Below are positions 10,885 through 40,364 of a stretch of 40,478 nt of DNA, piece after piece. Source of the DNA: a virus; the IMG/VR virus record IMGVR_UViG_3300034061_005821, positions 1-40,478 of that record; one strand, written 5' to 3'. The notes below the pieces were generated by a model that was not told the DNA's origin, searched no databases, and worked only from the letters and a program-made list of their open reading frames with translations. Numbering within the stretch: position 1 is the stretch's first letter; every line of letters starts with the position of its first letter. The position numbers were made by a program, and so were the translations under genes.

Positions 10885-10890
10885 ATTTAA

Positions 10891-10910
10891 TACCACTGGA
10901 ATTCCAGGTA
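10891..10910. terminator. Palindrome between convergent genes
   Basis: CTGGAATTCCAG is a perfect 12-base palindrome, extended by TACC and GGTA with one bulge, located between the stops of the convergent integrase and 101-residue genes. There is no U-tract, so termination is plausible by position only. Confidence 0.4.
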
Positions 10911-10920
10911 ATTAAAACAT

Positions 10921-11226
10921 TTATGGTTTGTAATGGTCCATTAACCAATTTATAAAATCCTCGGCAGATTCTACATCTACCTGGTGATCTTTGTAGTGGA
11001 TTATTTTTTCGCTTGAATCGTATGCCCACCAAGCTATCTGTTCTAACATCTGCTCGAATACACTATCAGAACCATCGCACAGCATGGTGGCTATGCTAGT
11101 TTCTATCTTGCAGATAAAAGGATCGGTAAATGTGGTTAGGTCAAGTCCTTGTTTTATGATAGACTTGAGCGTTTCATCTGTTTGTTTTAGCAGCTTAATT
11201 GCATCTATGGCGTATTGTTTATGCAT
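10921..11226 (-). CDS. Unknown acidic protein, 101 aa
   Basis: A soluble, acidic, helical protein (TDETLKSIIKQGLDLTTF, FEQMLEQIAWWAYDSSEK, ESAEDFINWLMDHYKP). It is convergent with the integrase and sits alone on the minus strand, so it probably has its own promoter and could be a lysogenic conversion gene. Family not recognised. Confidence 0.55.
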   Translation of the reverse strand: MHKQYAIDAIKLLKQTDETLKSIIKQGLDLTTFTDPFICKIETSIATMLCDGSDSVFEQMLEQIAWWAYDSSEKIIHYKDHQVDVESAEDFINWLMDHYKP

Positions 11227-11346
11227 TTTGAAAAAAGTTTATATTATAAAGAAAATATGTCGTTTTATTTTAAAAAAATAATCACCAAAAGTTCATCAAA
11301 ATAGTAAATAGTTCATCTTTCATAATTCGTCAAATTCAGTAAAAAA

Positions 11347-11619
11347 ATGCAAAATCCAAATTTCATTCTTGTTGAAAACCCACACACGGGTAAGCATGTA
11401 AACATTATGCCACTGTTTGATTACCTGCAAAACGAATATAGCGGCAGTCCTATTACACACCTACAAGCTACTGAGCCGATTCAAGATGCTTTAGATTACC
11501 TTGCGGTGTCACTACCTACTGATGGAATAGACACCTACGAGCTCGTTCACCGTAATTGCGTAAATGATAGACTCATTACGCTTCGAAATACTTTTGGCGA
11601 TATGTTTAAGGTAGCATGA
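11347..11619 (+). CDS. Inverted paralogue 1, unknown small protein
   Basis: 90 residues, closely similar to the product of 11917-12186: both share LVENP-TGKHVNIMPL, LQATEPIQDALDYLAVSLP-DGIDT-EL and VNDRLITLRNTF--MFK. The two genes point in opposite directions and flank an XRE regulator gene. Conservation is highest in the centre and C-terminus, so both copies seem to be under selection. The ATG is preceded by an AT-rich 120-base gap that also serves the divergent 101-residue gene. No function is known to me. Confidence 0.65.
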   Translation: MQNPNFILVENPHTGKHVNIMPLFDYLQNEYSGSPITHLQATEPIQDALDYLAVSLPTDGIDTYELVHRNCVNDRLITLRNTFGDMFKVA

Positions 11620-14461: not shown

Positions 14462-17400
14462 CTAGAAACTACTTCTGGCGTTTATGTCGGCCGTTTCTTT
14501 GAAGGCATTGGAGAGGGCATGAAAGTTAATAGAAGGGTCTTTATCGGCTATTACGGCCAAATAGCTCGACTGTGCCTTTAATTCCTTCGCCATCTGTGCC
14601 ACTGCGTTTTCTAGTGCGGTGGTAGATAGGTTATTGCTTATGTGCGAAGCCTGCTGCACGCTTGCGGGCGATGCGAGGTTTACCATGCCAGCGGTGGTGC
14701 TCACGTTGGGGCCATTGCGGTAGAGGTTGCTGCGGAGCACCATGGTTACCAAGTCACGATTAGATATTCCGCCAAGCATGGCGTTTGAGTGCTTGTCTAT
14801 AATACGCTCGCCACGGTCGGCCATAATAGGTACTTTGTCGGTGCCTGACGGAAATATGCCTTTGGGGTCGAGGTATTCGGTACCAGCCGCAAACTTAGGT
14901 ATCGTAAAATCCCAGTCAAAGGTCGGTGGGCTTAGCTTTGTCCAGTCTATTTGCCCCAGCATATCTCTAATCATTATCAATCGACTAGCCATCTCGTTGT
15001 ATTGATCAGACGTTATCTTTCCCGCATTAAAAGCATCCAATGCCTTGGCCATCATGTCGTCATATCCTTTTGTCACCAAATCATTCAGTATCTTAAAACT
15101 CTCCGCTAGTGCTGCATCTTTGGCTTTCCCGAGTGCTATCAGCTTGTCATTATAGGCAGTGTTTATATCTGTCATAATAGCAAGGTGTGCCTGCTCTGCG
15201 GTTTCGGTCGCTGTCCTTTTTGTTGCTTCGGCTTGTGCTAGTGCTATGTTCTTGGCAGTGGTGCGGGCTATTTCGTCGGCGGCATGCTTTATGCTCAGTG
15301 CCTCAAGTGCTTCTCTGCCTTGTTGTATAATCAAATCCGTCGCAGAGTATTCCTTTCGTTTTTGGCCTTCGTTATTGATTACAAATGTCAGCTCTGTGGT
15401 TAGCCATGCTTCAAGTTTAGCAAGTTGGGCATCACGGGCTTCTGTGGCTCGGTTTATGCCATCTATCTCGGCCTGCGTCATGTCTGCGGTTATGGGCTTT
15501 ATTTGGCTCGCAAATGCCGCCATTATGCCCGCCTTTTTGCCCTCAAACTCATTGGTTAAGCTCAGCTTGGTGTCGTTATTGCTTACCAATGCCAGCAACT
15601 CATCGTTGGTCTGTCGTTGTATTCCAAGGCTCTGTGCATTAAATATTTGATTGGCGAGTTGCTGCTCTAGGTCAAACTTCTTGTTTATGTTCGCTACTGC
15701 TGCGTCATATTGCTGATTAATCTTGGTTAAAACATCAGAGTGTATCTTGTTTTGGTTGTCAATCTCTTGGCTGTATAGCTTATTTTCGTTCTCTACGGCT
15801 TTGGTAAAGTTTTTGTTTATGGCCTCTCCTATAGCTAACTCTTGCTTGATACGCCTATCGTAACTATCATAGTCGCCTAGGTCAAGCCTTACGGGTGGTA
15901 CTTCTGTTATTTTTATGAGGGTTTCATAAACTTTATTCATCCTATCAACATCGCTATCATTTAAGAATGAATCCGCTAATTTCATAAACTCCTCCCCTGC
16001 TGCTTTCATTTCTGCTCTCAGGTCAGCGAGTTTGGCCATCTGCAAATCATAAGCCGAAGATACCCAATTGTCCATAGCCCTAAACAATGTTCCAATACCG
16101 GCAATAGTAGCACCAAGTACATCACCACTCGCCAAACGCCCAAGTGCATTTAATGCATTTTCGCCAATATTTACCCATGCTTGTTTATTTCTCAGGATAG
16201 CCTTCTCCGTTTCGGTGTTGGCATATTGCATCTGCCTACCTAACTCATTTTGGTAAAGTCCGAAAATCTCGCTCGCTACTGTAGCGGCAGCATCTACGGC
16301 AAATAGCATAATGTCACGCTCACGCTGTATGGCTTGGGTTGCCTTTTCGAGGTTGTCTGCCCTTTGTTTTTCTACATCATTGTAGTATATCTGAATCCTT
16401 TTCTTTAAAGAATCGAGAGATACATTTACATTTCTTTGGTGTGTTTTTGCCTCATCATCTTTGGCTTTCGTGATGTTTTTTTCTATTTCTTTTATCGCCT
16501 CGCCAAATATCTTGTTTCTTTCATATCGTTCTTTTAGCTGTTGGGCTTCCAGTTCTTTTATGATCTGCATGTGTTCTTTAAAACTTTCCTGTTGGGCGTC
16601 AAAGAGTTCGTTAAACCGTTTCTCTTCTTCTTTCCTCAGTTCCTCCTTTTCCTTATTTGCTTTCTTTTCGGCGGCGGTACGGTTTTTGGCTTCTCCTTCG
16701 GTGTTGGCAGTCATTTCTTTTTGCCCTTTTTTCATATCATTCACGTGGCTATCCCAGTCTTTGCCTGTCTTCTTCATGTCGGCAGTGCTGTCTGTCCATA
16801 TTTTATTAAAGCCTTTGGATATCGCACCAAAATTATCTGTACCGTTTTTCTTGAGGTTATTCCAAGATATTTCTAGTTGTTTCGCTTCTGCTTTAGCTCC
16901 TTTAAAATCTCCTTGAAGTGCTTTGCCTACCATACTCGTAGCATTGCCCAATACACGATAAACATCTATCACACCCACCACCGCAGCTCTTAGTAGCTGA
17001 AATGGCACAAGCACGGAATATAACACTGTGCCTAGTATCTTAACGGCCTTGCCCATGTCAAAAACTTGCCCCTGTGCTTGTGGAAACATCTTAAAAAACA
17101 ATTCTTTACCTATATTCCACAAGCCACCAAATGTGTCTGCTACACTATCTACCAATACACCGAGCGGCCCTATTTTGTCTATAAAATCACCAACAAACCC
17201 CACGCCTTTTACAAACAGATCGAGTATAAAGTGAAAGACTGGTTTTAGTTTTTCACCGAATTGTACGGTCACAAAGTCTATTTTGTCACCCAAATTACTC
17301 TGTTTGCCCGATAACTTATCTGACACTTCGCTCGTTACACCCGCCACTCCGTTATATTCGCCCATGGCCACTATAGCTTCATAGATGGCTTGTTCGTTGT

Positions 17401-18268
17401 TTTTTACGTTGGTGGTTTGTCCTTTAAAACTCAGGCTTACATTATCGCCTTCTTTCTTCATTTTAATACCAAACTCCTTTAGCCTTTCGCCTTCGCCCAT
17501 CTGAGCATCTAGCACGGCTTCTGTGAGTTGGTCAAAGTCCTTACCTTGGCTAGCTGCAAGGTCTGAGAGCTTCTTCATCTCTGCCGAGGTTGGCAATAGA
17601 CCTCTGTTTACCATTTTGTTAAACGAGCCCGTCATTTCGTCTAAGCTAAACGGCGTAGTGGCTGCTATTTCCTTTAGCATCTTAAGAGCTGCCGTGGCTT
17701 TTTCTTGGCTGCCGAGTGCGTTTTTAAGTACGGTTTCGTACTTTTCAAACTTGGCAGTAAGGTCAAACACCTGCATACCCACGTCCCACACTTGCTTGGC
17801 AAACTCTATCACCGCACCCGCCACAAAGGCTTTTTTGACTAGCCCTGCGTACTTTGTCCATGTCCCTTCCTGTGCTTTGGTGGTAGTGTCCAAGCCCCGC
17901 ACCTGCTGATTTATGTCAGCTATACGATCCCGCAGTGGCTCTATCTCCTTTAGCTTGTCTATCCATTCGGCCGAGCCTACTTTTAGCAGTTTGAGTTCTT
18001 GGTTTTTGCGTTTCATCAGGGCTTCAAGCTCCCGCATGCTGGCGTTTTGTACGTCTATGCCCTGGGTGGTTTTCTTAATTTCCTGTTGTATGTCTCGCTG
18101 TACTCGTGCCAGAGCTTTATACTCTTCGGTGTTTTTTTTGCCTTCCAGCTCCATTTCTTTTAGCTGGTCTTTCACATCTTTGGCCGAGGCATTGAGGGCA
18201 TCAAATGTTTTTAAGGCATCTTGTCCAAGTATCCGAATCTTAAGTTCGGCTATGTCGGTGAAGGTCAT
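14462..18268 (-). CDS. Tail tape measure protein
   Basis: 1268 residues, the longest gene in the window. The N-terminal third is a charged coiled coil (ASAKDVKDQLKEMELEGKK), followed by a region with TPFSLDEMTGSFNKM typical of phage tape measures. Two hydrophobic segments lie near residues 145-170 and 400-435, then long coiled coils. The C-terminus has the phage motif VPIMADRGERIIDKHSNAMLGG. It sets tail length and is threaded through the tail tube; the size predicts a long, non-contractile tail, consistent with no sheath gene being seen. It follows a terminator and a late-type promoter box about 150 bases upstream. Confidence 0.85.
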   Translation of the reverse strand: MTFTDIAELKIRILGQDALKTFDALNASAKDVKDQLKEMELEGKKNTEEYKALARVQRDIQQEIKKTTQGIDVQNASMRELEALMKRKNQELKLLKVGSAEWIDKLKEIEPLRDRIADINQQVRGLDTTTKAQEGTWTKYAGLVKKAFVAGAVIEFAKQVWDVGMQVFDLTAKFEKYETVLKNALGSQEKATAALKMLKEIAATTPFSLDEMTGSFNKMVNRGLLPTSAEMKKLSDLAASQGKDFDQLTEAVLDAQMGEGERLKEFGIKMKKEGDNVSLSFKGQTTNVKNNEQAIYEAIVAMGEYNGVAGVTSEVSDKLSGKQSNLGDKIDFVTVQFGEKLKPVFHFILDLFVKGVGFVGDFIDKIGPLGVLVDSVADTFGGLWNIGKELFFKMFPQAQGQVFDMGKAVKILGTVLYSVLVPFQLLRAAVVGVIDVYRVLGNATSMVGKALQGDFKGAKAEAKQLEISWNNLKKNGTDNFGAISKGFNKIWTDSTADMKKTGKDWDSHVNDMKKGQKEMTANTEGEAKNRTAAEKKANKEKEELRKEEEKRFNELFDAQQESFKEHMQIIKELEAQQLKERYERNKIFGEAIKEIEKNITKAKDDEAKTHQRNVNVSLDSLKKRIQIYYNDVEKQRADNLEKATQAIQRERDIMLFAVDAAATVASEIFGLYQNELGRQMQYANTETEKAILRNKQAWVNIGENALNALGRLASGDVLGATIAGIGTLFRAMDNWVSSAYDLQMAKLADLRAEMKAAGEEFMKLADSFLNDSDVDRMNKVYETLIKITEVPPVRLDLGDYDSYDRRIKQELAIGEAINKNFTKAVENENKLYSQEIDNQNKIHSDVLTKINQQYDAAVANINKKFDLEQQLANQIFNAQSLGIQRQTNDELLALVSNNDTKLSLTNEFEGKKAGIMAAFASQIKPITADMTQAEIDGINRATEARDAQLAKLEAWLTTELTFVINNEGQKRKEYSATDLIIQQGREALEALSIKHAADEIARTTAKNIALAQAEATKRTATETAEQAHLAIMTDINTAYNDKLIALGKAKDAALAESFKILNDLVTKGYDDMMAKALDAFNAGKITSDQYNEMASRLIMIRDMLGQIDWTKLSPPTFDWDFTIPKFAAGTEYLDPKGIFPSGTDKVPIMADRGERIIDKHSNAMLGGISNRDLVTMVLRSNLYRNGPNVSTTAGMVNLASPASVQQASHISNNLSTTALENAVAQMAKELKAQSSYLAVIADKDPSINFHALSNAFKETADINARSSF

Positions 18269-19057: not shown

Positions 19058-21118
19058 TTAGGTAAATATGATGTACCATTTGTCACCATTCGCTGGTATG
19101 GCAGGAAATGCAATAGCTTGAGAAAAATCTTTTGCATCTACGGCGGAACCCACCTGTAGTCCGTTTCTGTAAAAACGAACCGTTCTATTGGCTGCCGTGG
19201 CTGGTAGCTCATCGTTGTAGGCATGTACTTGATAATTACCGCCTGCTATAACGGGGTAATGTCTATCGTTGCGGTCAGCTGCAAACGTAAACACGTCGGT
19301 TTGATCTACCTGATAAGTTGGGCCATTAAACCACATGTTGCCCGGGCGATAACTGGCCGTTGTATTGAGGCTTATACCCGTCAAAGCCATTGCTGAAGGA
19401 TTACCCACCACCAACCGCAGCCACCACCTACCTGTTGGTATAGTACCCGGATTGTACACGCCTACCGTATTACATGGGCCATTGGCATTGGCATAGGTTT
19501 GGGTGTCAAGCGATTTGGCAAAGTTCTCAGCCTTGGCATTGGCATCTAATTGGCTGATGGTGCTACCGTATTCTAATGCAGGCACGCTGATAGTCGCAAA
19601 ATCACCCACAAGCCCAGTAGCACAAGTGGCGTTTTGAAAACTCCCCTTCATACTAAAAGCTGCTGATCTAAACGGCGTATTGGCCAATGCACAGATGGCT
19701 TGGGCTATGGGCGGTATATAACCCGCTTCGCCCTCTATGTTGTCCTTGGTTTCTATCGGCAGCACTGCCACGCCTGCGGTGGTAAATTTCTGTAAGCGTG
19801 ACACTTCAAATATACCGTTGTACTTGCCCTTGGCATCTAGTTGACATGCACCTGCTATGGGCTGCCAACTGAAATTCGTAGCCGATGGCAATTTGTCTTG
19901 TGGCAGATTGCTGAAGGCTGAATCGGTGTAGGCCTTACCCACCGATAGCGTAAATCCTACCTCATCCTGTGCATCGGTACTTCGCAGAATGTTTTTTGGC
20001 TGAGAAACTGGCACAAAACTAATTTTCCCCGCCGAGCTGCTCACATACATAGCGAGGTTATAAGTATGCACCAAATCCGCCAAGTACGCCGACTCTGACA
20101 AGTGCAACAAGCGGGTGTTTAATTCAAACACTTGCTGACTCTGTACCTTGCTCACAATTTCTTCGGGCTTTATGGCTTCAAAACTAAACCCACGAAACGC
20201 CTGTGCCGTAGTTGATTGGTTATTAATTACGCTTGCGTTTTCTCCGTAACAATCTACCACATCCAAGCCTCCTAGGCTATTTTCAAAAATAAGCGACACC
20301 GAGCTTGGCATTTGGTGCCGATCTATGGTGTACTTAACCGCCTGCGTGTATATAACATTGTTAAACATGTCTCTTAATACTACCGTGTAGCTTTTGAGGT
20401 TGGTTGGGTTTAACTTGGCTGTGTCTGTCGGACTACAAACCACCGAGGCTCCACAAGGAAAATGATACAATCTGCCCGGGCGTGGTTTTATCCTGAAGAT
20501 TGTTTTTGTAGCGGTGGTGCCATTAATGTAAGTTCCTACTACTTGCATTTGCATCTCGGTTATAACCTCGGGGCTATTGTATAGCCAACTCAAAAAATCT
20601 ATTCCCCCTCCTGCCATGTTGCGATCTAGTGGCTTGTAGCTCAAATACCCCTTGGCCGCCAGTATGTCATTATAAACACGGGTGCGGTTAGCTTCATAGT
20701 GTTCGGTACTTAAGCCTGCCCATATTGCCGTAGCGGTTGCCGTAGTAGCAAGCGTGGTTGTGGTGGGTGCTACACCTACGGGTTCTTGTATCACATAAGT
20801 TTTGCAAAAGTAATCTATCGTTTTGCCGTTGGCCAACATTGGTGAAAGGCTCGTAATGTCACACCCAAACGAAGATTCCAAATTGGCAAAAATAATATCG
20901 GAGATGTCAAAACTTGCACCAGGATACAGCGTGCTGCTGCCGTTAACTATGGCGGGTTCTTCATATCCGTAGAGGGTAGCCTCTAGTACGCCTACGTTGT
21001 TTTGCAATATAAACACCTCTACCTTGTAGCGAAGTGTCTCACGTGCGGGTATGCCTGCCACATTGTGGGCGGGTATGTTTACTATAATCGGATTGCGGGC
21101 TAGGGTAAACTGTTTCAT
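19058..21118 (-). CDS. Large tail protein with a DUF5977-type domain
   Basis: 686 residues, mostly predicted beta strands with many Thr, Asn and Ala as in tail-tip and fibre proteins. Near residues 495-560 it contains a DUF5977-type repeat: FQNATCATGLVGDFATISVP, then STISQLDANAKAENFAKS and TYANANG. This domain occurs in Bacteroidota surface and phage proteins. The C-terminal 120 residues look like a separate beta domain (WWLRLVVGNPSAMALTGISL). Between endolysin and tape measure genes, it is likely a tail-tip or receptor-contact protein. It overlaps the endolysin stop by four bases. Confidence 0.7.
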   Translation of the reverse strand: MKQFTLARNPIIVNIPAHNVAGIPARETLRYKVEVFILQNNVGVLEATLYGYEEPAIVNGSSTLYPGASFDISDIIFANLESSFGCDITSLSPMLANGKTIDYFCKTYVIQEPVGVAPTTTTLATTATATAIWAGLSTEHYEANRTRVYNDILAAKGYLSYKPLDRNMAGGGIDFLSWLYNSPEVITEMQMQVVGTYINGTTATKTIFRIKPRPGRLYHFPCGASVVCSPTDTAKLNPTNLKSYTVVLRDMFNNVIYTQAVKYTIDRHQMPSSVSLIFENSLGGLDVVDCYGENASVINNQSTTAQAFRGFSFEAIKPEEIVSKVQSQQVFELNTRLLHLSESAYLADLVHTYNLAMYVSSSAGKISFVPVSQPKNILRSTDAQDEVGFTLSVGKAYTDSAFSNLPQDKLPSATNFSWQPIAGACQLDAKGKYNGIFEVSRLQKFTTAGVAVLPIETKDNIEGEAGYIPPIAQAICALANTPFRSAAFSMKGSFQNATCATGLVGDFATISVPALEYGSTISQLDANAKAENFAKSLDTQTYANANGPCNTVGVYNPGTIPTGRWWLRLVVGNPSAMALTGISLNTTASYRPGNMWFNGPTYQVDQTDVFTFAADRNDRHYPVIAGGNYQVHAYNDELPATAANRTVRFYRNGLQVGSAVDAKDFSQAIAFPAIPANGDKWYIIFT

Positions 21119-21642
21119 GCTTCGGTGGTGCTTTCGGCTATATTGGAGTTAATTTTCATTGCTATTGCGGTGCTTGGCCTTATCCTGTAGTTCGGTTGGC
21201 GAATGGCAACCAGTCGGTGTTTAGATATCTTGGTAATATTCACGGCGTCTGATTGATTGCCACCTAACACATAATATGAGGTTTCGTTTTCGCCTACATA
21301 GAAACCAACATGACCGCCTCCCTTGCGTGCAAAAACCAGAATATCTCCCACACTGGCAGTTTTTGAAGGTTCCCCCCATTCTGCCCAATCTCTTGCACGG
21401 AGATAGTTGGTCACGGGTGCACGGCCTGTGCGTAGCACTACCACCGCCACAAACAGTCCGCACCAGGGGATAGAATCTTGGGTGTACCAAGCGTTTGCAC
21501 GGTCGCCGATTTCTTTTTGCCAATCAATAATAACCGAGTTGTTTTTGGGTCCTGGTGTTTCTACCACACCTATTAGCTTGACGGCCTCTTGTATCGTTCG
21601 TGGCATATCAGGCGAAAGGAGGAATTTAAATTCTGGTTTCAT
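21115..21642 (-). CDS. Endolysin, TIGR02594-type NlpC/P60-CHAP-like hydrolase
   Basis: 175 residues with the layout of the TIGR02594 family of papain-like peptidoglycan hydrolases: an N-terminal helix ending GVVETPGPKNN, catalytic cysteine C61 in WCGLFVAVVV, then ASVGDILVFARKGGGHVGFYVG with H111, and VLGGNQSDAVN. It should cleave peptide bonds in host peptidoglycan at lysis. There is no signal peptide, so it needs a holin. It lies downstream of an Rz-like gene, giving a partial lysis cassette, with the holin candidate far upstream near 38.7 kb. Confidence 0.82.
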   Translation of the reverse strand: MKPEFKFLLSPDMPRTIQEAVKLIGVVETPGPKNNSVIIDWQKEIGDRANAWYTQDSIPWCGLFVAVVVLRTGRAPVTNYLRARDWAEWGEPSKTASVGDILVFARKGGGHVGFYVGENETSYYVLGGNQSDAVNITKISKHRLVAIRQPNYRIRPSTAIAMKINSNIAESTTEA

Positions 21643-29214: not shown

Positions 29215-29745
29215 TTAAGCAAATGTTAAGGCCGCTACTACTGCGTTGTCTAACACTGGCGGAAACCAAGCATTGTTGCTACGGCTTGCTGTGTAAGTAA
29301 ATCCACGCTCGTCGTTGCCACCTTTGCCAATTTTGCCGTTTACTTGCACATTGAGCGGGTTCTGACGAGAGCCTAACACTATCCACTTGTTGTCCGAAAG
29401 TTCTTTAAGCACCACAACGCCTGCGTTCATGTACTTTTGGTTTTCGGCCAATATGGCTGTGCTATAGCCTGCTGCTTCCCACATAGCTTCGTGCCTAATG
29501 CCCTGATAACCATTACGCCCTTCGGTTGGGAAGTTTCCGTCGATACTATCAGACGGTGGTATTACTTTAGCAAATTTTATGGTTGGAGCCAACGGCGGAG
29601 CGGTGGTTACTAATCCTGCGTTTGCTTGAGCCGCTACTGGCCAATTGGCAGTAAGGCTTGTCGCTAATACTACATATACCCCTAATGCACCAGGAGGATT
29701 GGCGGCTTGTGAGCTATCTGCGGTTATTGAACTGAAATCTGGCAT
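29215..29745 (-). CDS. Tail-tube-like protein 1, candidate major tail protein
   Basis: 176 residues. It is clearly related to the N-terminal half of the 33287-34201 product: FSSITADSSQAANPPGALGV against FIAFTADSAQQHNPAGASWI, WPVAAQANAGLV against WPAAGDIQNGVI, and KWIVLGSRQNPLNV against TMRVLGKSSAGLQI. The final NDERGFTYTASRS is like the end of tail tube proteins. The gene follows the capsid gene after an array of palindromic elements. High expression expected if it is the main tube subunit. Confidence 0.55.
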   Translation of the reverse strand: MPDFSSITADSSQAANPPGALGVYVVLATSLTANWPVAAQANAGLVTTAPPLAPTIKFAKVIPPSDSIDGNFPTEGRNGYQGIRHEAMWEAAGYSTAILAENQKYMNAGVVVLKELSDNKWIVLGSRQNPLNVQVNGKIGKGGNDERGFTYTASRSNNAWFPPVLDNAVVAALTFA

Positions 29746-31356: not shown

Positions 31357-32139
31357 TTATATGTTTTTTGTTATGAATTTTAAAAATGTGTCTTTGTCCA
31401 GGATGCCATCTATCAAGCCTTCTTTTTTGGCTTGTTTGGCGTTGAACACTTCGCCCGTTTGGGCATTATCGGTAAGTGTAGGGCGTGAGGCCAATACATC
31501 TGCGATAAATAGATCACGAATAGCGGTCAGGTTGTTTACAATGCCTGCTCTTATTTCTTCGGTGATAGGCTCCACCGAATTTAATAGCATCTTTTTTTCA
31601 GAACCTCGAGCTCGTATTACTTCGTAGCTTTTCTTCTCGTCTTTCTCTTGCTCCAGTATAGCCAATGCACCTAGTGAGCCTATCTGACTGCTGATACCTT
31701 CGGCGTGTATGCTGCGGCTGCCTGCTATAGCATAGTAATGTGCTGAGGCTGCCATGCCTTTGATGTAGCCATAAACTGGTTTCTTAGAATTTTTGGCGGC
31801 CATGTACAATTCTCTTGTACCAGATGCCTGTCCACCTGGGCCGTCTGCTTCTAGCACAATGCCTTTTATTTCGGAGTTGTCGTTGGCGTCGGCTATCATG
31901 TTCACAATATCCTCCGATCCTATGGCACATGCTTGACCGTATCGGGTCATCATGCCCACTATGGGTATATGTAACAAATATCCAGATGTGCGGGCATTCT
32001 GAAACTTAGTAACAAATGGACTACCACCTGCCATACGCACGTTGTCGATATTCAGCGTGCCTGCCAGATATTTCTGATACAATGCCCTGTGTGTAGGGCC
32101 GTGCATCATATAGGGTTCGTATGGGTTTAATTCTATCAC
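31357..32139 (-). CDS. S49-family prohead protease
   Basis: 260 residues of the SppA/S49 (ClpP-fold) type: a central GIVLEADGPGG stretch, nucleophile S132 in GMAASAHYYAIAGSR, and a lysine (K182 or K183) in RARGSEKKMLL about 50 residues later. It should cut scaffold and perhaps capsid termini during head maturation. The start codon is GTG, only three bases after the -7 element of late promoter C, so the mRNA would be almost leaderless. Confidence 0.85.
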   Translation of the reverse strand: MIELNPYEPYMMHGPTHRALYQKYLAGTLNIDNVRMAGGSPFVTKFQNARTSGYLLHIPIVGMMTRYGQACAIGSEDIVNMIADANDNSEIKGIVLEADGPGGQASGTRELYMAAKNSKKPVYGYIKGMAASAHYYAIAGSRSIHAEGISSQIGSLGALAILEQEKDEKKSYEVIRARGSEKKMLLNSVEPITEEIRAGIVNNLTAIRDLFIADVLASRPTLTDNAQTGEVFNAKQAKKEGLIDGILDKDTFLKFITKNI

Positions 32140-32191: not shown

Positions 32192-32231
32192 AGCCGCATA
32201 GGTCACTGAGCGTAGCCGAAGTGCGACTCTA
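32192..32231. repeat. Palindromic element with nested insert, supplying a stop codon
   Basis: Outer arms AGCCGCA and TGCGACT enclose GTCACTGAGCGTAGCCGAAGTG, a different Bacteroidota-type repeat (split here as GTCACTGAGCGT and AGCCGAAGTG). The flank holds the TAG stop of the 32229 gene. Confidence 0.7.
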
Positions 32232-32633
32232 CTTGATGGGCTTAACTCTTTCTCTTATGGCTTCTCGGCGAAGTTTTTGTATCTCGGCTAGCTCTGCTTC
32301 GGTTTTAACATCTACAGTGATAGAGCTATTTACAAGGGCTTGCTTTATTAGCCTATTAAGTTCTTGCCGTGAGCTTTGTCTTTCTATCCTTTGTTTTGTT
32401 AATCTTTCTACCTCGAGTTGTTCCTGCCTATCTTCTTGTTCCATTTTTTTATTCAAAATAGTCTGGCCAGTTATTTCTTCAAACTTGGTGGCGGTGGTAG
32501 TGGTGCGTAAATAGGCTTTACCCTTCAGTATTACTGCTGTGGTTGCTACTACTGTAGTGTCGGTTTGAGCATGTGCTGTTGCGGCAATAACAACGATTAA
32601 TGCCATTAAAGTTAATTTTCTCATAATTTTCAT
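32229..32633 (-). CDS. Secreted coiled-coil protein
   Basis: 134 residues from MKIMRKL, or 131 from MRKLTLM at 32624. A classical signal peptide (LTLMALIVVIAATAHA) ends before QTDTT, the Ala-x-Ala-Gln site common in Bacteroidota. The mature part has a short beta segment (AVILKGKAYLRTTTTATKF) and a long charged helix rich in Gln, Glu and Arg (RQEQLEVERLTKQRIERQSS). Lies in the late structural region, after a LytTR gene which it overlaps by about 115 bases. Role unknown; perhaps a surface or exclusion factor. Confidence 0.65.
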   Translation of the reverse strand: MKIMRKLTLMALIVVIAATAHAQTDTTVVATTAVILKGKAYLRTTTTATKFEEITGQTILNKKMEQEDRQEQLEVERLTKQRIERQSSRQELNRLIKQALVNSSITVDVKTEAELAEIQKLRREAIRERVKPIK

Positions 32634-32916
32634 TTTTTTGAATTGATAATAAAATTGATACATTTCGGCGTGATACTTTAAACTCCTGCCCGTTAATCAT
32701 TTTTACGATTACCGCTGTTTTGTTGTCGGTTTTGGTTTTGGATATACTCTCGACATAAGCCAAGTTGATGGCTGTGCTTCTGTTTATGCGTGTAAGTCCA
32801 TATTGGCTCAAAGTACGTCCAAGTGTACTAGATAACACTTGGAGTTTTGTGCGGTGGCGGTATATCTCTGTGTAATTTGTATCCGCCACCGCATGTGTAA
32901 CTATATTGCTCTCCAT
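32518..32916 (-). CDS. LytTR-domain DNA-binding protein
   Basis: The first 90 residues form a stand-alone LytTR domain: NYTEIYRHRTKLQVLSSTLG, then YGLTRINRSTAINLAYVESI and VKMINGQEFKVSRRNVSILL. LytTR domains bind direct-repeat promoters in bacteria and usually carry a receiver domain, which is missing here. The last 35-40 residues are out-of-frame sequence of the next gene, so the functional end is probably near residue 95, with the stop lost or moved. It may control late transcription. Confidence 0.75.
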   Translation of the reverse strand: MESNIVTHAVADTNYTEIYRHRTKLQVLSSTLGRTLSQYGLTRINRSTAINLAYVESISKTKTDNKTAVIVKMINGQEFKVSRRNVSILLSIQKNENYEKINFNGINRCYCRNSTCSNRHYSSSNHSSNTEG

Positions 32917-33269
32917 ATACCTCCTGAATCTCGATGTAGTTTAAGTTTATGACCGATAGCGTTAGGCAGTATTTCGCTAGGGTTTGGCGATAGCGTGGTG
33001 GTGGTAGCTCCCGGCTTAATGGTTACTGCCGTGCTAAAAGTTATATCTCCTGTGCCTTGGTTGACCACATTACACACAAAGTTGGTAGTACTAGCACTGA
33101 GCGTGTAGGTACATGCCCCGCCTGTGTTAATGATCGTTTGATTATCGTGCGAGTTTGTTATGGTGAAATTACCGGTATTCACCACAATGGTTTCTGTGGT
33201 ATGCTTGAGGTTAAATGTCATGCTAATGCCTAGCAGTGCGAGCGTAATAAATAATGATAGTTTTTTCAT
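32901..33269 (-). CDS. Secreted fibre-like protein, 122 aa
   Basis: Signal peptide MKKLSLFITLALLGISMTF, then a beta-rich domain (TGNFTITNSHDNQTIINTGG, STTNFVCNVVNQGTGDITFS) ending in LKLHRDSGGIWRAI. The repetitive small-polar strands and the end are like the C-terminal domain of many phage tail fibres. A signal peptide on a fibre-like domain in a structural operon is unusual. It overlaps the LytTR gene by 16 bases. Confidence 0.6.
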   Translation of the reverse strand: MKKLSLFITLALLGISMTFNLKHTTETIVVNTGNFTITNSHDNQTIINTGGACTYTLSASTTNFVCNVVNQGTGDITFSTAVTIKPGATTTTLSPNPSEILPNAIGHKLKLHRDSGGIWRAI

Positions 33270-33286
33270 GATAGATTATTGATTGA

Positions 33287-34201
33287 TTATAGTTTTTGAA
33301 TAGAAACACGTCCGCCTATTGAAAACACTCCTCCTGCCAACGATGCCACGTTTGGCGTTGATGCTGAAATATTAAAAAAGGCCAAATTATTAATAGATAT
33401 TCTGTCTACAAATCCTGGTACAGTTGGACCAAATGCATTAGATGCCGCTGAAATTTTTCCTGTGATAAATCCGTCTGTCTTTTCTAAAAATCTAAATGTC
33501 CCTGATGCTAGAGCGGTTATATCAACTCTTCGAATCTCTACAAGATCATTCACGGCGAATTTCCTATCTATTGATACATTAAATGTATTTATGAGCTCGA
33601 TATTGTCAATACTTGTGGCACTTGTTAGTATTGGAAATGTACTTGACCTTAAATTTAATCCATACCCATCATTTCCTGAAAGTATATCGGTCTCCAGATT
33701 TGGGCTTAGTATTAGATTCTTGCGTGTTTGTACATTGCTAATGGCTTTTACTGTCGTTTTGTTTTCGCCGCCCTCTAAGCCAGAGTCCGACTCGTTGTTT
33801 ATCTGTAGCCCCGCCGATGATTTTCCAAGCACCCGCATGGTACCGTCTGATTTTCCAACGATAAAAACCGCAGTCGAGTTTACGTCTTTTTCAAGCTCCC
33901 TATTGATTAATTGTGTGTCGTTGGCTATTTCATAACCAAGTTCATGTCTGTAGAACTGATGCCCATATCGTCCTACCAATGAATCCTTGTAAAACAATGT
34001 GCCTGGTACTGGTGTAATGCGTGGCAATCCTGCATCAGCTCGTAGCAATGGCATGTTTACGATTACGCCATTTTGAATATCGCCTGCCGCTGGCCATGGT
34101 TTCATAAAGTGTTCGGTGTTAATCTTAATTATCCATGATGCCCCTGCGGGGTTGTGTTGTTGTGCCGAATCGGCCGTAAATGCTATAAATGCGTCTGACA
34201 T
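33287..34201 (-). CDS. Tail-tube-like protein 2, extended
   Basis: 304 residues. The N-terminal 170 match tail-tube-like protein 1 (29215-29745) throughout, including the GxxVLGKS-type turn. The C-terminal 130 form an added beta domain that ends SLAGGVFSIGGRVSIQKL, similar to the ends of the 34208 and 34516 products. It may be a tail tube variant, a tail-tip tube protein or a decorated copy. Lies directly after the 103-residue gene. Confidence 0.55.
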   Translation of the reverse strand: MSDAFIAFTADSAQQHNPAGASWIIKINTEHFMKPWPAAGDIQNGVIVNMPLLRADAGLPRITPVPGTLFYKDSLVGRYGHQFYRHELGYEIANDTQLINRELEKDVNSTAVFIVGKSDGTMRVLGKSSAGLQINNESDSGLEGGENKTTVKAISNVQTRKNLILSPNLETDILSGNDGYGLNLRSSTFPILTSATSIDNIELINTFNVSIDRKFAVNDLVEIRRVDITALASGTFRFLEKTDGFITGKISAASNAFGPTVPGFVDRISINNLAFFNISASTPNVASLAGGVFSIGGRVSIQKL

Positions 34202-34207
34202 GATGTT

Positions 34208-34519
34208 TTAGTTTCTTTGTGTAAAAAAAATGTGTCCTGAAAACAATGGCGTAGTGGTAGAGTCGGCAACCGGTAAATACAATGTCATTAAACCCGAAGG
34301 GCTTATAAAATATGTGATGTCTTTGACCTCATGATTGGCCGTATTAAAAAAACGTACTTTTACTTTAAAATTACCAGGTACTATACTACTGCTGTTGGGT
34401 AGCACTATCTGCACCGTTCCCGTATCAGGTATGTTGGTTACGTTCTGCTGCCAACGTGCTGGTCGGCGAGTGTAATGTGTCACACTGATGTAGCGTTGGG
34501 CGGTGCCGAAATTGATCAT
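34208..34519 (-). CDS. Small tail-region protein, 103 aa
   Basis: A beta-rich protein. Its second half, VRFFNTANHEVKDITYFISP through TTPLFSGHIFFTQRN, lines up with the C-terminal end of the 34516-35232 product (ITFFENG, ITPSAIKATLPTPDGTSYTF, TGEVFIEKRN). It looks like that added domain encoded as a separate protein. It overlaps the preceding gene by four bases. Confidence 0.6.
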   Translation of the reverse strand: MINFGTAQRYISVTHYTRRPARWQQNVTNIPDTGTVQIVLPNSSSIVPGNFKVKVRFFNTANHEVKDITYFISPSGLMTLYLPVADSTTTPLFSGHIFFTQRN

Positions 34520-35232
34520 GAAAGTGTTGGGTTTCGTTTCTCAATAAATACCTCTCCTGTAAATGTGTATGACGTACCATCGGGCGTGGGCAATGTGGCT
34601 TTTATCGCCGATGGCGTTATGGGTGTGCCTACTACATCGTCTCGTTTGATTCCGTTTTCAAAGAATGTGATTGCTATTGACTCGGAATTCAGACTATGGC
34701 TGATGGTGTCGCCGTCGCCTAGGTTAAAAACTGTTTTGTTTTCGGAGATAGCCTCGGTGCTATTGCAGGCTATCATGATGGTGTTCATTATCACAAAATC
34801 GGCGTTTATGGCGTTTTCGAGTTCTTCGGCTATGTGAAACGGCAACCCGCTTGTTACGGCAAGGTTCAGCATCAACGTATTTTCCGTTTCGTTTACCTCG
34901 CCATTGATGCTTATTCGATAACCTTTGCGATACTGCCCTAGCACATAACTAGTACCGTTGGCATCTGTCACAATGAGCACATAGCGGTTATAGTTGGTTT
35001 CTGCAACTAATCGTATGGCTGACTGCAATGCGGGTATTTTGGCCGAAACTTGGTAGTTATATGTCAATCCTTGTGGACCCCGTGAGGGAGTAAGACTTAT
35101 GCGTGCTTGGTCAGGTGCAAAATATACCTCAGTAAATAGCCCAACAATATCACCATCAGCCGAATATTGGCTGTGTTCTATCAGTTTTAAGGCTGTTATG
35201 TTGGCGTTATTTTGGGCAAATTTGTTAAACAT
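34516..35232 (-). CDS. Tail-tube-like protein 3, with added C-terminal domain
   Basis: 238 residues. The first 140 match the 135-residue product of 35232-35639: FAPDQARISLTPSRGPQGLTYNY against FAHDQASLSITPARSDSGTVYNY in shortened form FAPDQARISLTPSR / FAHDQASLSITPAR, and YVLGQYRKGYRISINGEV against YTIGKRNKGYKINISGEV. A C-terminal beta domain related to the 103-residue protein follows. A tail or head-tail connector role is inferred. Confidence 0.55.
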   Translation of the reverse strand: MFNKFAQNNANITALKLIEHSQYSADGDIVGLFTEVYFAPDQARISLTPSRGPQGLTYNYQVSAKIPALQSAIRLVAETNYNRYVLIVTDANGTSYVLGQYRKGYRISINGEVNETENTLMLNLAVTSGLPFHIAEELENAINADFVIMNTIMIACNSTEAISENKTVFNLGDGDTISHSLNSESIAITFFENGIKRDDVVGTPITPSAIKATLPTPDGTSYTFTGEVFIEKRNPTLS

Positions 35233-35639
35233 TATACTATTTCAAATGGCTCTCGGCTCTCTACGTTTAAACTTAGCTGCATCGTGTTGATGTCTGGCGA
35301 CACTTCACCGCTGATGTTTATTTTATAGCCTTTGTTTCGCTTGCCTATGGTGTAAATTGTGCCATTTTGGTCAGTACAGAAAAACACGTACCTGGTATAC
35401 AACGTTTCAGCAATAGTTCTAAGAGCATATTGTACTCTCGGGATGTTGCATGTGAGCTTATAGTTGTACACGGTGCCACTGTCAGACCTAGCGGGTGTTA
35501 TAGACAAACTGGCTTGATCATGAGCAAATGGCAAAATGATGGCTGTTCCAGTAATAGCCAAACTGTCGCTCACCCCAGTGTGTTCTACTAGGGTGAGGGA
35601 CTGTATGCTGGCTACGTTTTGTGTCGGGGTAATAAACAT
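35232..35639 (-). CDS. Tail-tube-like protein 4, 135 aa
   Basis: The short, domain-only paralogue of the 34516-35232 product. It contains TDQNGTIYTIGKRNKGYKIN, the same turn-and-strand motif as in the other three tail-tube-like proteins. Its ATG lies three bases after the -7 element of late promoter D, so its mRNA would have practically no leader. The following gene starts at its stop codon. Confidence 0.55.
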   Translation of the reverse strand: MFITPTQNVASIQSLTLVEHTGVSDSLAITGTAIILPFAHDQASLSITPARSDSGTVYNYKLTCNIPRVQYALRTIAETLYTRYVFFCTDQNGTIYTIGKRNKGYKINISGEVSPDINTMQLSLNVESREPFEIV

Positions 35640-35642
35640 GTG

Positions 35643-35687
35643 GCGAAAATGTGTTAAAAACGTGCGGGTTTCAAGTTTCTTTTTTCT
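35643..35687 (-). promoter_or_regulatory. Late promoter box D
   Basis: The 19-bp box has TTG at plus 35672-35674, exactly 20 bases from CATTTTCGC (35643-35651), a weaker -7 element. The ATG is three bases further, the same spacing as in box C. Confidence 0.7.
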
Positions 35688-35715
35688 AAAAGACCTATTT
35701 GGGTATTTTTGCCCT

Positions 35716-37365
35716 TTAGTTCTGCCAAGCAGATACGGCGTCTAGTTCGGTGGTATCAATTTTGCCGTTTTTGAGTTTTTTTGGTACAAATGACCTACCT
35801 CCTTCGTTTATTTCATTGGCCGAATACCACAATATTGCGGGAATTTTTTCAGGGTATTTTTTTATAAACTCTTGCATAAGTTTGCATTTTCGAGCAATTT
35901 GTTCGGTATTGGCTGATTCTACACTCCAGCCTACGCCATTGGATATTCCTAAATCTGTACGGCTATCAAGGTTTTCTATTCCTAAGCTCAACAATGGTAT
36001 AAGTTGTACATCTGTGTGTTTGTATTGTCTCATCCAAGATTCTCTGTCCGAAACTTCTTTGGCTATCTGTTGTTCCTGTGTAGCATTTCCGCCAATACTG
36101 GTGTTGTAAGAGCTTATGGCATTATTTCGTTTTTGTAGATATTCAGACCATTCAGTGGGATATCCATTATGGCTATAATAGACTACATATATGTCTCCGC
36201 CACCTTTGGCTCTAAAAGCCGACTGGTACTTTGGTAGCTCTGCAAAATCAGCCGATATCATGTACAATACAGGCTTGTTGCCTATTTTAAACCAATAATC
36301 TTTAAGCATTTGAGTGGTAATCTGGTCTATTTCCTCATTGGATCTACCAGTGTTGCACATAATCGTCATTTTCATGCCTAGTTTATTAGACATGTTTTGA
36401 AACTGCTGACGGGTTTCAGAGAGATAACTATCCACATTGTAGTAGTTAAACACCAAGAAGTCAAAACCCGCATCGCGATAATATTTAACCTCACGCTCGG
36501 TATCGGCAGGCGTTTTGTCATATTTGACATTTACCATTGTCTCAAGTTCGTCAAAAGTGTTACGTCCTAAACTTTCGTTGTATTTCATATTGTACCTAAT
36601 CTTTACTTTTTCAGGTGCAATGTGATCTCCATAAAACGGGACCAGGTTAAACTTATCGCCCCAGTAGGTTGCAGCATATCTGTTTCGGCTTATGTGGTTT
36701 ATTAGGTAGTCGTATTTTGGTTTAGGGTCATTCCAGTAGTCTCGTTCCCAATTATCCCACATAATCAGCCCCACTGGCACACTTATTTTGTCTTGATTAG
36801 GTACTGTTGGGTTTGTAACGGGTTTATTGGTTGATTTTATAAATTCTCCTTCACTGTTCTTTTGAAATCCAAGTTTTAAAAATTCAGCTTCAGGAAAATT
36901 AGTTGCTGGATATAAACCTCCCAATTCTGAATTCTGGCTAACTATACTGGGCAAACTGTTGATGTCTATTTTAGTTGCATGGTTATTGATTAAGTTTATT
37001 CCTCTTGCTACATAATAAGCACGTGCCGAATTAGTTTGCATGAGATAATACTGGCCATTTATTTTTTTAGCAATTAAAATCCTTTCTGGTACTGCCCAGT
37101 AGCCTAGAGATATTTCATCGCTCTCAATAGTTGGAGGTGTTGGTTTTGTTGGTCCAATCGGAAAAACGGGTGGTGTAATTACAATTGGTTCCTGTGTAGG
37201 TTTTGAAATAGCAACAAATGCATTTCTATACAAATATAGAGCCTTGTCTCTCTGTGAATAGTAGAGCTTTCCCTCGGACGGTTTCCTGACGTTTGCGGTG
37301 TCTTTGACGACGCTTTGTGCGTAAGATGCAAATGCAAAAAGTAATAAAATCAATAGTTTTTTCAT
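35716..37365 (-). CDS. Secreted GH99/WbsX-like glycosidase
   Basis: 549 residues from MKKLLILLLFAFASYA, a signal peptide cut before QSVVKD; the frame is open 16 codons further but overlaps the previous gene. After a Pro-rich linker and a small domain, residues about 190-540 resemble GH99-like (WbsX) enzymes: VGLIMWDNWERDYWNDP, EREVKYYRDAGFDFLVFNYYN and the diagnostic C-terminal ILWYSANEINEGGRSFVPKK, with two Glu that could be catalytic. GH99-like enzymes cleave mannose-containing glycans. It could be a depolymerase used at entry or release. Substrate unknown. Confidence 0.65.
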   Translation of the reverse strand: MKKLLILLLFAFASYAQSVVKDTANVRKPSEGKLYYSQRDKALYLYRNAFVAISKPTQEPIVITPPVFPIGPTKPTPPTIESDEISLGYWAVPERILIAKKINGQYYLMQTNSARAYYVARGINLINNHATKIDINSLPSIVSQNSELGGLYPATNFPEAEFLKLGFQKNSEGEFIKSTNKPVTNPTVPNQDKISVPVGLIMWDNWERDYWNDPKPKYDYLINHISRNRYAATYWGDKFNLVPFYGDHIAPEKVKIRYNMKYNESLGRNTFDELETMVNVKYDKTPADTEREVKYYRDAGFDFLVFNYYNVDSYLSETRQQFQNMSNKLGMKMTIMCNTGRSNEEIDQITTQMLKDYWFKIGNKPVLYMISADFAELPKYQSAFRAKGGGDIYVVYYSHNGYPTEWSEYLQKRNNAISSYNTSIGGNATQEQQIAKEVSDRESWMRQYKHTDVQLIPLLSLGIENLDSRTDLGISNGVGWSVESANTEQIARKCKLMQEFIKKYPEKIPAILWYSANEINEGGRSFVPKKLKNGKIDTTELDAVSAWQN

Positions 37366-37367
37366 AA

Positions 37368-37832
37368 TTATGATATTTGGATGGTTTCGTTGGTTTGTTT
37401 GGCTTCTCGCCATTGTCTTACTTTTATATAGCTTTCAAAATATAGCTCATCATAAAGGCATTCTGCTGGAATTTCGTGTCGTTTAAAAAATAATCTCACA
37501 ATCTCTCGGTAACTTATGGTATCGTCGATGCTTTTGTACAATTCGGCAAAATTTCTAAGGTCGTGCAAAAAGGTTTTTTCGATGATCTGTGCAAGGCTTA
37601 AGGTTTGCTGCTCTGTTACGTTAATATTCGTATGAAACCTTAATGTGGTTATTGATTTATCTAAAACCTTGCCTTTTTTAAATTCAAAATGCGAATCAAG
37701 TTCAATTGGCTGAGCCATCAGCATGTTCAGTATTGCCGAACCTATTACGGTTGTTTTGTTTATTTTGCCGTCTCTGTTTAGGTTTAAAAAGTAGTACCGA
37801 ACGGAGTCTTTAAGGTAGATCTGTACTGTCAT
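37368..37832 (-). CDS. Unknown late protein, 154 aa
   Basis: Beta-rich first half (MTVQIYLKDSVRYYFLNLNR, FHTNINVTEQQTLSLAQII) and a helical second half (YREIVRLFFKRHEIPAECLY, ESYIKVRQWREAKQ). The glycosidase gene starts two bases after its stop codon. There is no signal peptide. Context suggests a tail-fibre or chaperone function but I cannot place it. Confidence 0.55.
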   Translation of the reverse strand: MTVQIYLKDSVRYYFLNLNRDGKINKTTVIGSAILNMLMAQPIELDSHFEFKKGKVLDKSITTLRFHTNINVTEQQTLSLAQIIEKTFLHDLRNFAELYKSIDDTISYREIVRLFFKRHEIPAECLYDELYFESYIKVRQWREAKQTNETIQIS

Positions 37833-37934
37833 CTCTTTTCATTATTACATTTGAATTATGATGTAAAAGTAAATAAGATAAATCACTAATCTATAAAATT
37901 TTAGAACAAAATAGGTAAGGGGAATATTTTGTCA

Positions 37935-38540
37935 CTAAAACTTATAATGACTAAGGTCACGCCTGATATACCATTTGTTTTTCCAAACAAAAAGTTGAAA
38001 TTTATCAAAGGGAACCAGGCGATTCCAATTTCGTTCGCTATTATGGGTAAGTGTTGTACTAAGGTATGTTTCCTCATTTGAGTGATAACCTCGGATAGTA
38101 TCGGGAAAAGTCAGTCGGCATAGATTATCCACTGTCACATTGGCCATATTGGCATTGGTTGCATGGTTAGGGTATCCCAAGTAGGAGATAGTGTAGGTAA
38201 TAGAGTCGTCTTTCAATAGTGCCGGGTTAGGTAAGTTAATCGTTACGCTATCGCCGCATATTACTACATACTTTTCTTGTGTAGTGGTTAAGGTCACATT
38301 TTTGTTTGTAACTCCATAGCTTCGTCCTTCTATAAATCGTGGGCTTGTCTCTATCCGGTTGTGTATGCCATAAGCATCCATCAAATACGGCTGACCATCT
38401 TTTACACTTATGCCATAAAAGCCTGGTGCGGGTTTTGTGGTGTCGGCATTGAATACAGGTGTAGTACGTCTTCGTACCTGAGCTATTGTCTGCAAGGCAA
38501 ACAATAGCGTAAATAATGTCAAAATCAGGTATTTTTTCAT
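37935..38540 (-). CDS. Secreted beta-rich protein, 201 aa
   Basis: Signal peptide MKKYLILTLFTLLFALQTIA cut before QVRRR. The first mature part (APGFYGISVKDGQPYLMDAY) resembles the mature N-terminus of the glycosidase (GKLYYSQRDKALYLYRNAFV). A fibre-like beta domain follows (TTQEKYVVICGDSVTINLPN). It overlaps the holin-like gene by four bases. It may be exported and attached to the cell surface, or be a virion adhesin. Confidence 0.6.
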   Translation of the reverse strand: MKKYLILTLFTLLFALQTIAQVRRRTTPVFNADTTKPAPGFYGISVKDGQPYLMDAYGIHNRIETSPRFIEGRSYGVTNKNVTLTTTQEKYVVICGDSVTINLPNPALLKDDSITYTISYLGYPNHATNANMANVTVDNLCRLTFPDTIRGYHSNEETYLSTTLTHNSERNWNRLVPFDKFQLFVWKNKWYIRRDLSHYKF

Positions 38541-38836
38541 TTTTTAACAGGCGTTTTAGTTCTTACTAATACGGCTAGTCCTACCCCTAGAGAGAGATAG
38601 CCAACTTTTGAATTTTCGACGTTTACGTCCAGTCCAGACATGGTCTTGATCACTGCCGATAATTCAGGGTAGCTATTCAATAACATGGCAACCATCATCA
38701 TTATAGCTGCTACTACTATTTGTTTGCCTACTAGCCTATAGCCATTCCATCTATTCGTGGTCATGTAGTAGAATCCTGCCGAAAGTGCATATCCGGCAAT
38801 CATAATCAGAAACGCCATCAGTGTGTTTTGTATCAT
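38537..38836 (-). CDS. Holin-like membrane protein, 99 aa
   Basis: Three hydrophobic segments: NTLMAFLIMIAGYALSAGFY, KQIVVAAIMMMVAMLL and VGYLSLGVGLAVLV, with a basic KTPVKK tail. Size and layout fit a class I holin that would release the endolysin at lysis. It overlaps the 55-residue membrane gene by four bases upstream and the secreted 201-residue gene downstream. The endolysin is 17 kb away, so this is a candidate only. Confidence 0.6.
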   Translation of the reverse strand: MIQNTLMAFLIMIAGYALSAGFYYMTTNRWNGYRLVGKQIVVAAIMMMVAMLLNSYPELSAVIKTMSGLDVNVENSKVGYLSLGVGLAVLVRTKTPVKK

Positions 38837-39008: not shown

Positions 39009-40364
39009 TTATATTGTTAATTTTTGTAGTTTAAAGTCTCCAATTTCTTTTTTTACATCAATTCTCTGTTTGGTTATCACATAATGATGGTCTCTAATAA
39101 ATAAGCTCATATTTTGCCCGCCATTTTCATGGAAATCAAGCATAGCAGCTTGGTGTGGTTTGATTGGTAATTGTACATTTATCTCAAATGTATTGGCTAT
39201 GTGTCTTTCAAAATTACCATAGAAACTATTCGGCAAACTCACTCCTGATTTTACTAATTTCAGACTCCTGGTGCCAAGTGTGTGATGAGCGGTTCCGTTG
39301 TCATAAAATGCCAATTTAAACGTGTTCTTCTCCGATAATTGGTTGTTTACATCAGATACACCCTTTGCGTCTATTCTTGCTACACCAGCATCTACATCCA
39401 CCGTGCTAAATGATGTTTTTAGTTCAAAGTTCTCATTTGGTTGGGCAATTGTTGACAAATAGGTCGTATAGTCATTAATGTCCTTCGTAAATGCATCCGT
39501 AGGAGTATGTGTCAATACAAGCCTATTATTTACAATTGATTCTTTTATTACGTATTTCGGATCAAACCATATCTTGTTACCAGGGCTAATAAAGTATGGG
39601 TCTGCTAAATCAATTTTAATGGACTTACTACCAACAAACACCACAAGATTGAGTGCAATAGCCAACTCCTTAATGAACTGGGATATGGTCATATCAGGTA
39701 CATGGTCACTGTGCATGATGTTAGTACTTGCCCTTACATCTCTGAGGTTTACCAGTATAAGTTTGTCTAGGCTAGTGTTCGAGAAGAATGTACCAGTAAA
39801 TGCAATGCCAGTCTGTAGGCTGATACTATCAAACAACTTCTTAATGAAGAAGCACGGCACTAGTGGTGAGGTTAAGTTGTATGTAGTACCGTTGTGATTG
39901 TTAACCGTGCCACTATAGCTATTACTACCGAAGTACCCTGGGTTGTTGATCTTCGGGTAACAAAACAAATCAGAACTCAATGGCGTAACAGATGGTGTGG
40001 TAGGCTTGGTAGTTGTACCTGTTAACAATGTACTCAACACTTGCGGGAATTCGGTCAGGCTCTTATTAATTTGCTGCACCAGGCTAAGCTTTATCTCTTT
40101 ATCATCCACGTTGTGAATCTGCAATACACCTTCTTGAATAATATTGCCACCATTATTTAGCGTACCGTTCAACACAGTAGGCGTGCCAGTGTTTTGCTTA
40201 TGAAATCCTATTCGTTTTAAATTGTGCGGAGTAGTTGGTATTTTAAACGGGAACACCTTAGCCCCTGTCAGTACAGCAAACTCGACAATAGGATTAGATC
40301 TCTCTAGCACTATTGATTCGTTTGTGAACAAGTCTAACTGCTCTCTGTTGGCTCGTAGTTCCAA
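39009..40364 (-). CDS. Tail/baseplate protein, first gene of the late region
   Basis: 451 residues. The start EQLDLFTNESIVLERSNPIVEF followed by VFPFKIPTTPHNLKRIGF matches a Bacteroidota phage tail protein type in which a short strand region precedes a PF-x-IP-x-T-x-x-N motif. The rest is beta-rich with a central helical part (MTISQFIKELAIALNLVVFV) like tail-hub domains. No ATG or GTG exists in the usable frame; the TTG at 40362-40364 is the only normal start after the promoter. It is read from late promoter E. Confidence 0.6.
   Translation of the reverse strand: MELRANREQLDLFTNESIVLERSNPIVEFAVLTGAKVFPFKIPTTPHNLKRIGFHKQNTGTPTVLNGTLNNGGNIIQEGVLQIHNVDDKEIKLSLVQQINKSLTEFPQVLSTLLTGTTTKPTTPSVTPLSSDLFCYPKINNPGYFGSNSYSGTVNNHNGTTYNLTSPLVPCFFIKKLFDSISLQTGIAFTGTFFSNTSLDKLILVNLRDVRASTNIMHSDHVPDMTISQFIKELAIALNLVVFVGSKSIKIDLADPYFISPGNKIWFDPKYVIKESIVNNRLVLTHTPTDAFTKDINDYTTYLSTIAQPNENFELKTSFSTVDVDAGVARIDAKGVSDVNNQLSEKNTFKLAFYDNGTAHHTLGTRSLKLVKSGVSLPNSFYGNFERHIANTFEINVQLPIKPHQAAMLDFHENGGQNMSLFIRDHHYVITKQRIDVKKEIGDFKLQKLTI

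Follow-up and report, generated by a model that had tools for sequence, protein, structure and literature searches.

A putative set of exported proteins, including a GH99-like enzyme, encoded among the late genes of a temperate siphophage of a Bacteroidota host

The virus sequence filed in IMG/VR as IMGVR_UViG_3300034061_005821 (40,478 bases, analysed over its whole length and called the window hereafter) carries, among its head and tail genes, four genes for proteins with predicted signal peptides. We tentatively read this set, with a little less than even confidence in the picture as a whole, as an accessory Sec export module of a temperate siphophage, whose products would be soluble in the periplasm and whose enzyme, related by fold to GH99 glycosidases, would trim a host glycan around the time of lysis. 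The four genes, referred to by their lower coordinate, and the neighbours that define their setting are the following.

31357..32139, minus strand: S49/ClpP-like head maturation protease, following directly downstream of the exported genes
32229..32633, minus strand: signal peptide protein of 134 aa from the MKI start; signal peptide 1-22 followed by Gln, then a coiled-coil-like tail
32901..33269, minus strand: signal peptide protein of 122 aa; small beta-rich-looking domain; weak signal peptide, no Gln
35716..37365, minus strand: GH99-like exported protein of 549 aa from the MKK start; signal peptide 1-16 followed by Gln; GH99/GH71-fold domain 193-549
37935..38540, minus strand: signal peptide protein of 201 aa; signal peptide 1-20 followed by Gln; N-terminal module common to longer prophage fibre-like proteins
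38537..38836, minus strand: small holin-like membrane protein with hydrophobic segments, directly upstream of and overlapping 37935-38540
39009..40364, minus strand: tail-tip-like protein with homologues in 52/200 Lacihabitans-family genomes, where they adjoin the tape measure gene

The window is a temperate siphophage of a Bacteroidota host. It encodes integrase, primase, terminase, head protease and tape-measure genes, and is most closely related to prophages from the family of Lacihabitans soyangensis. The assignment of its capsid gene rests on weak homology to the capsid of a Microcystis phage and on homology to protease-adjacent genes of sister prophages. The late genes are found on the minus strand, as are the four genes of interest, which are flanked by the tail-tip gene and the head protease. 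An earlier note on this DNA had placed them in a virion operon; the setting among head and tail genes on the late strand agrees with this, and the coordinates and reading frames given there are correct. Searches of IMG/VR with the GH99-like, capsid and terminase proteins returned no close relatives, nor did searches of a phage collection with the GH99-like, 37935 and tail-tip proteins. The holin-like protein has no Pfam match.

Some further features of the region are of note. The tail-tip gene is found at the far end from the tape measure gene (14462-18268), while in four relatives (L002, L066, L068 and L071) it directly follows it. One gene within the exported set (32518-32916), which shares about 116 bp with the 32229 gene, encodes a protein with a LytTR DNA-binding domain (Pfam E 5e-7). 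Two pairs of late proteins look like paralogues (29215-29745 with 33287-34201, and 34516-35232 with 35232-35639), the members of a pair matching the same homologues in sister prophages. Finally, the endolysin of the window is a CHAP protein (21115-21642), unlike those of sister prophages, whose endolysin-like genes have signal peptide-like N-termini ending before Gln (L068:16792-17418, L072:18202-18822 and several other prophages).

All signal peptide calls were made with a home-made heuristic scorer, not SignalP. By this scorer A-x-A type signal peptides with n-, h- and c-regions are clear in three of the four proteins, namely MKIMRKLTLMALIVVIAATAHA^QTDTT in 32229, MKKLLILLLFAFASYA^QSVVKD in 35716 and MKKYLILTLFTLLFALQTIA^QVRRR in 37935, where ^ marks the predicted cut. 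The N-terminus of 32901, MKKLSLFITLALLGISMTFN..., is the weakest of the four and lacks both a clear AxA and the Gln at +1. The claim of signal peptides in four late genes holds, clearly for three of them and more weakly for 32901, which has no clear cleavage site; the claim that three are cut before Gln in Bacteroidota style stands, since exactly 32229, 35716 and 37935 obey the A^Q rule. This Q-rule is a signature of Bacteroidota signal peptidase I, the predicted Gln fraction averaging 71% across 334 species (PMC5837995). Sites of this kind were called in 3/54 window genes versus 13/2584 non-gene open reading frames of related loci, and in 1/61 of the non-gene frames of the window itself; in 500 shuffles of the N-termini of the window genes the count never exceeded one. 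As controls, the scorer flagged Lom and Bor of lambda and none of the tail fibres of lambda, HK97, Mu and five lytic Bacteroidota phages. A chance origin of the set is unlikely on these counts. Because the Q-rule sites are retained in a homologue that is about 50% identical, as well as in three adjacent genes of another prophage, export of the predicted signal peptide proteins is well supported; sequence and conservation likewise indicate that signal peptidase I cuts three of them before Gln. We rejected the idea that export is a general habit of Bacteroidota phages, as no signal peptide was flagged on the fibres of the five lytic isolates.

The true start of 35716 is likely the MKK codon at 37365, the listed start at 37413 being 16 codons too long. 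This codon lies 2 bp after the stop of the preceding gene (37368-37832), and 37935-38540 and the holin-like gene have 4 bp in common (ATGA); from this arrangement both genes appear to be translationally coupled to their neighbours.

The protein encoded by 35716 consists, after its signal peptide, of a phage-specific N-terminal module (residues 17-60), an accessory domain (about 82-180) and a GH99/GH71-fold domain (193-549). Its structure was modelled by AlphaFold2 on an eight-row alignment, with middling quality (mean pLDDT 61). When this model was compared to the PDB by Foldseek, the best 28 matches were GH99 enzymes or human MANEA, with E values down to 4e-9, and those that came next were GH71, while VIA-align of residues 193-549 gave a Z score of 19.6 to a glycoside hydrolase-like protein and of 16-17 to GH99. 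Moreover, the enzyme has an NExxE motif at residues 517-521, of which N517, E518 and E521 are invariant across eight homologues, and the spacing of E518/E521 in the sequence resembles that of the E333/E336 pair of BxGH99 named in PDB titles. Sequence searches gave a different result. At E<=1 the protein has no match to any Pfam family, L020 and L025 have no Pfam match at 0.01, and neither direct nor profile searches of the PDB sequences found a GH99 chain. Nor did the model retrieve a clear phage GH99 relative from viral predicted structures. The prediction that one of the four proteins is a glycosidase is therefore borne out at the level of the fold, by Foldseek and VIA-align on a predicted model, and at that level 35716 is supported as GH99-like while belonging to no filed GH99 family. 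The accessory domain is also present in two chromosomal proteins without family (L026:7548-9839 and L027:9041-11347).

A full-length homologue of 35716, with a signal peptide and the mature start QSVVKD, is found within the tail operon of a prophage of Lacihabitans soyangensis KCTC 23259 (L002). The catalytic domain of this homologue shares 86% identity with a copy on the chromosome of the same genome and 55% with the window protein, while the first 60 residues of the homologue are 38% identical to the window and at most 18% to the chromosomal copies. In a segment-wise comparison these 60 N-terminal residues are common only to the window and L002 prophage enzymes. Genes related to the catalytic domain are found on chromosomes in non-phage surroundings and have hydrophobic, signal peptide-like N-termini; in a more distant one (L028) a match to a C-terminal type IX sorting-like domain falls just under the cut-off. 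Since the catalytic part matches a host copy and the N-terminus only another phage, the sequences fit a phage leader that has been joined to, or recombined with, a secreted enzyme of the host, with transfer in either direction being possible. A tree of the catalytic domain, with its small number of rows, gives the window protein no place. Next to the GH99-like gene of the Lacihabitans prophage, L002:5112-5723 encodes a collagen-repeat lipoprotein.

Family profile searches with all four window proteins gave no match of known function, and although sister proteins with a signal peptide and Gln match PHROG tail families, the window's own proteins do not. The N-terminal module of 37935 also stands at the head of an 808-aa protein in L067 and of a 495-aa fibre-like protein in L065, the latter encoded near a capsid gene, and one longer prophage protein with this module matches a PHROG tail-fibre family. 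The exact module is rare, as a profile of it matches only 3/200 Lacihabitans-family genomes; weak matches occur across the class. The C-terminal region of 37935 is related to L074:10550-11566. The structure model of 37935 is poor and unfit for a fold search. The proposal of two fibre-like domains is only partly borne out, in that the 37935 module is common to fibre-like proteins, one of them in a PHROG tail-fibre family; 32901 and 37935 themselves, however, match no family of known function. Tailspike-like traits are seen in that C-termini are swapped behind a kept N-terminal module and in the position beside the tail tip. A search for S74 gave matches in 29/61 family genomes, and among about 12 examples with a readable N-terminus 11 had a signal peptide followed by Gln. 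The host chromosomes of these bacteria encode such "tail-fibre" proteins in abundance, and fibre-likeness therefore need not mean a virion part.

Related sets are found in sister prophages. In L074, the protease is directly preceded by three consecutive genes with signal peptides ending before Gln (338, 134 and 163 aa). The first (10550-11566) matches 37935 at both ends, the second (10198-10602) is the likely counterpart of 32901, which it resembles weakly (pairwise E 0.019), more by synteny than by sequence, and the third (9714-10205) is the counterpart of 32229, which it matches at a pairwise E of 5e-5, to which signal peptide and coiled-coil composition contribute. L068 and L069 have such exported proteins of the S74 and tail-spike family, and in G018 and G004 large ones, with an N-terminus in common with L076, are encoded beside the tail tip; others lie between the tape measure and tail-completion genes. 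An enzyme identity was sought for the large proteins of L076 (79-1860), G018 and G004, and none was established. We left G087:35349 (807 aa) and G099:32410 out of the count because each may be a host gene at a prophage edge; by eye, the former resembles an outer-membrane receptor and the latter a peptidase. Apart from lysis-type proteins, most of the prophage stretches scanned have no large protein of this kind, and the set is for this reason considered accessory: it looks like a real, conserved but patchy module.

A lipobox Cys is absent from all four window proteins, as is a match to the type IX sorting domain (Por_Secre_tail, NCBIfam). Placement on the cell surface, as the earlier note had suggested, is thus not supported, and without a surface anchor the default is the periplasm, followed by release at lysis. 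The premise that the four are virion proteins may also not hold. In the reading we prefer, the four genes are probably co-expressed with the late genes, judging from strand, spacing and overlaps. Their signal peptides would carry the proteins through Sec, signal peptidase I would cut three of them before Gln, and the products would stay soluble in the periplasm and leave the cell at lysis. Combining a phage-specific N-terminus with what is predicted to be a host-type secreted endoglycosidase of the GH99 fold, 35716 would most likely trim an envelope or matrix glycan of the host around lysis, so that progeny might not be trapped on debris and already infected cells might expose fewer receptors. 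The fibre-like partners may bind the same surface. Glycan trimming, a superinfection block and lysogenic conversion are all roles that we infer.

Among the alternatives, the one we regard as unlikely but worth serious consideration is lysogenic conversion, in which exported morons aid the lysogen by degrading environmental polysaccharides or by changing adhesion, with no tie to virion release. It would explain why the set is patchy across sister prophages, why the catalytic domain is of the host secreted type and why S74 proteins with signal peptides are plentiful in host chromosomes, and the exported Lom of lambda is also encoded among tail fibre genes. The tight packing of the genes and their overlaps with late genes, however, argue against it, and no match to a Bacteroidota-type promoter was found in the region, albeit in a weak motif search. 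An improbable alternative is that the proteins are tailspikes that fold in the periplasm and join the tails at or after lysis through their kept N-terminal modules. The combination of such modules with variable C-termini would be expected of tailspikes, as would the position of large genes of this kind beside the tail tip or between the tape measure and tail-completion genes, and some of the sister proteins match PHROG tail spike or tail fibre families. Against this, lambda, HK97, Mu and the five lytic Bacteroidota phages have fibres without a flagged signal peptide, and the S74 class consists mostly of host secreted proteins. We know of no precedent for exported tailspikes in a tailed phage. 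Quite improbable, in our view, is the more specific proposal that temperate Bacteroidota siphophages of this kind use Sec to export their receptor-binding or depolymerase proteins, which would be joined to the tails outside the cytoplasm, at or after lysis, and whose catalytic domains would be borrowed from secreted enzymes of the host.

It could also be argued that the N-termini are not functional signals at all, that they are membrane-insertion or chance hydrophobic segments and that the proteins are ordinary fibres assembled in the cytoplasm. The weak site of 32901 and the heuristic nature of the prediction speak for this, whereas the exact A^Q sites and mature starts kept in diverged homologues, together with the enrichment of signal peptides with Gln over controls, make it very improbable.

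If the preferred reading of an accessory export module is true, a lineage of Bacteroidota prophages sends enzymes and fibre-type proteins through the Sec pathway of its host, from genes that stand beside virion genes and are partly built from host secreted enzymes. This would give phages of environmental Bacteroidota a route to altered envelope glycans, with effects on progeny release and superinfection. It also cautions that "tail fibre" annotations of proteins with a signal peptide may not denote parts of a virion.

Several known systems resemble the set described here. No exported GH99-like enzyme from a phage structural operon is described in the limited set of papers searched. Lom of lambda is likewise an exported protein encoded among the tail fibre genes of a temperate phage; it is, however, annotated in its record as an outer-membrane protein and is a single moron that is neither enzyme nor fibre. 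The S74 "tail-fibre domain" proteins secreted from Bacteroidota chromosomes also combine a signal peptide and Gln with fibre-type domains, but they are mostly scattered through the chromosomes, and the window proteins have no S74. With the GH99 endo-alpha-mannosidases and mannanases (BxGH99, BtGH99, MANEA) 35716 has in common the fold and, judged by its spacing, an ExxE pair in a kept motif; it differs from them in being only about 15% identical, without a Pfam match, and in its added phage N-terminal module and accessory domain. The "Nixviridae" prophages of Porphyromonas gingivalis carry Q-rule signal peptide genes proposed to modify the host envelope (PMC10367356). As in the window, the proteins are prophage-encoded and have signal peptidase I sites that expose Gln (PMC10367356). 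The five genes concerned there are annotated without function (PMC10367356), whereas the window has a GH99-fold enzyme and fibre-type modules, and its set moreover shows synteny across prophages and a catalytic domain shared with the host. Phage proteins that follow the Q-rule are thus already known from Porphyromonas prophages; what is added here is the GH99-fold enzyme and its host-shared catalytic domain.
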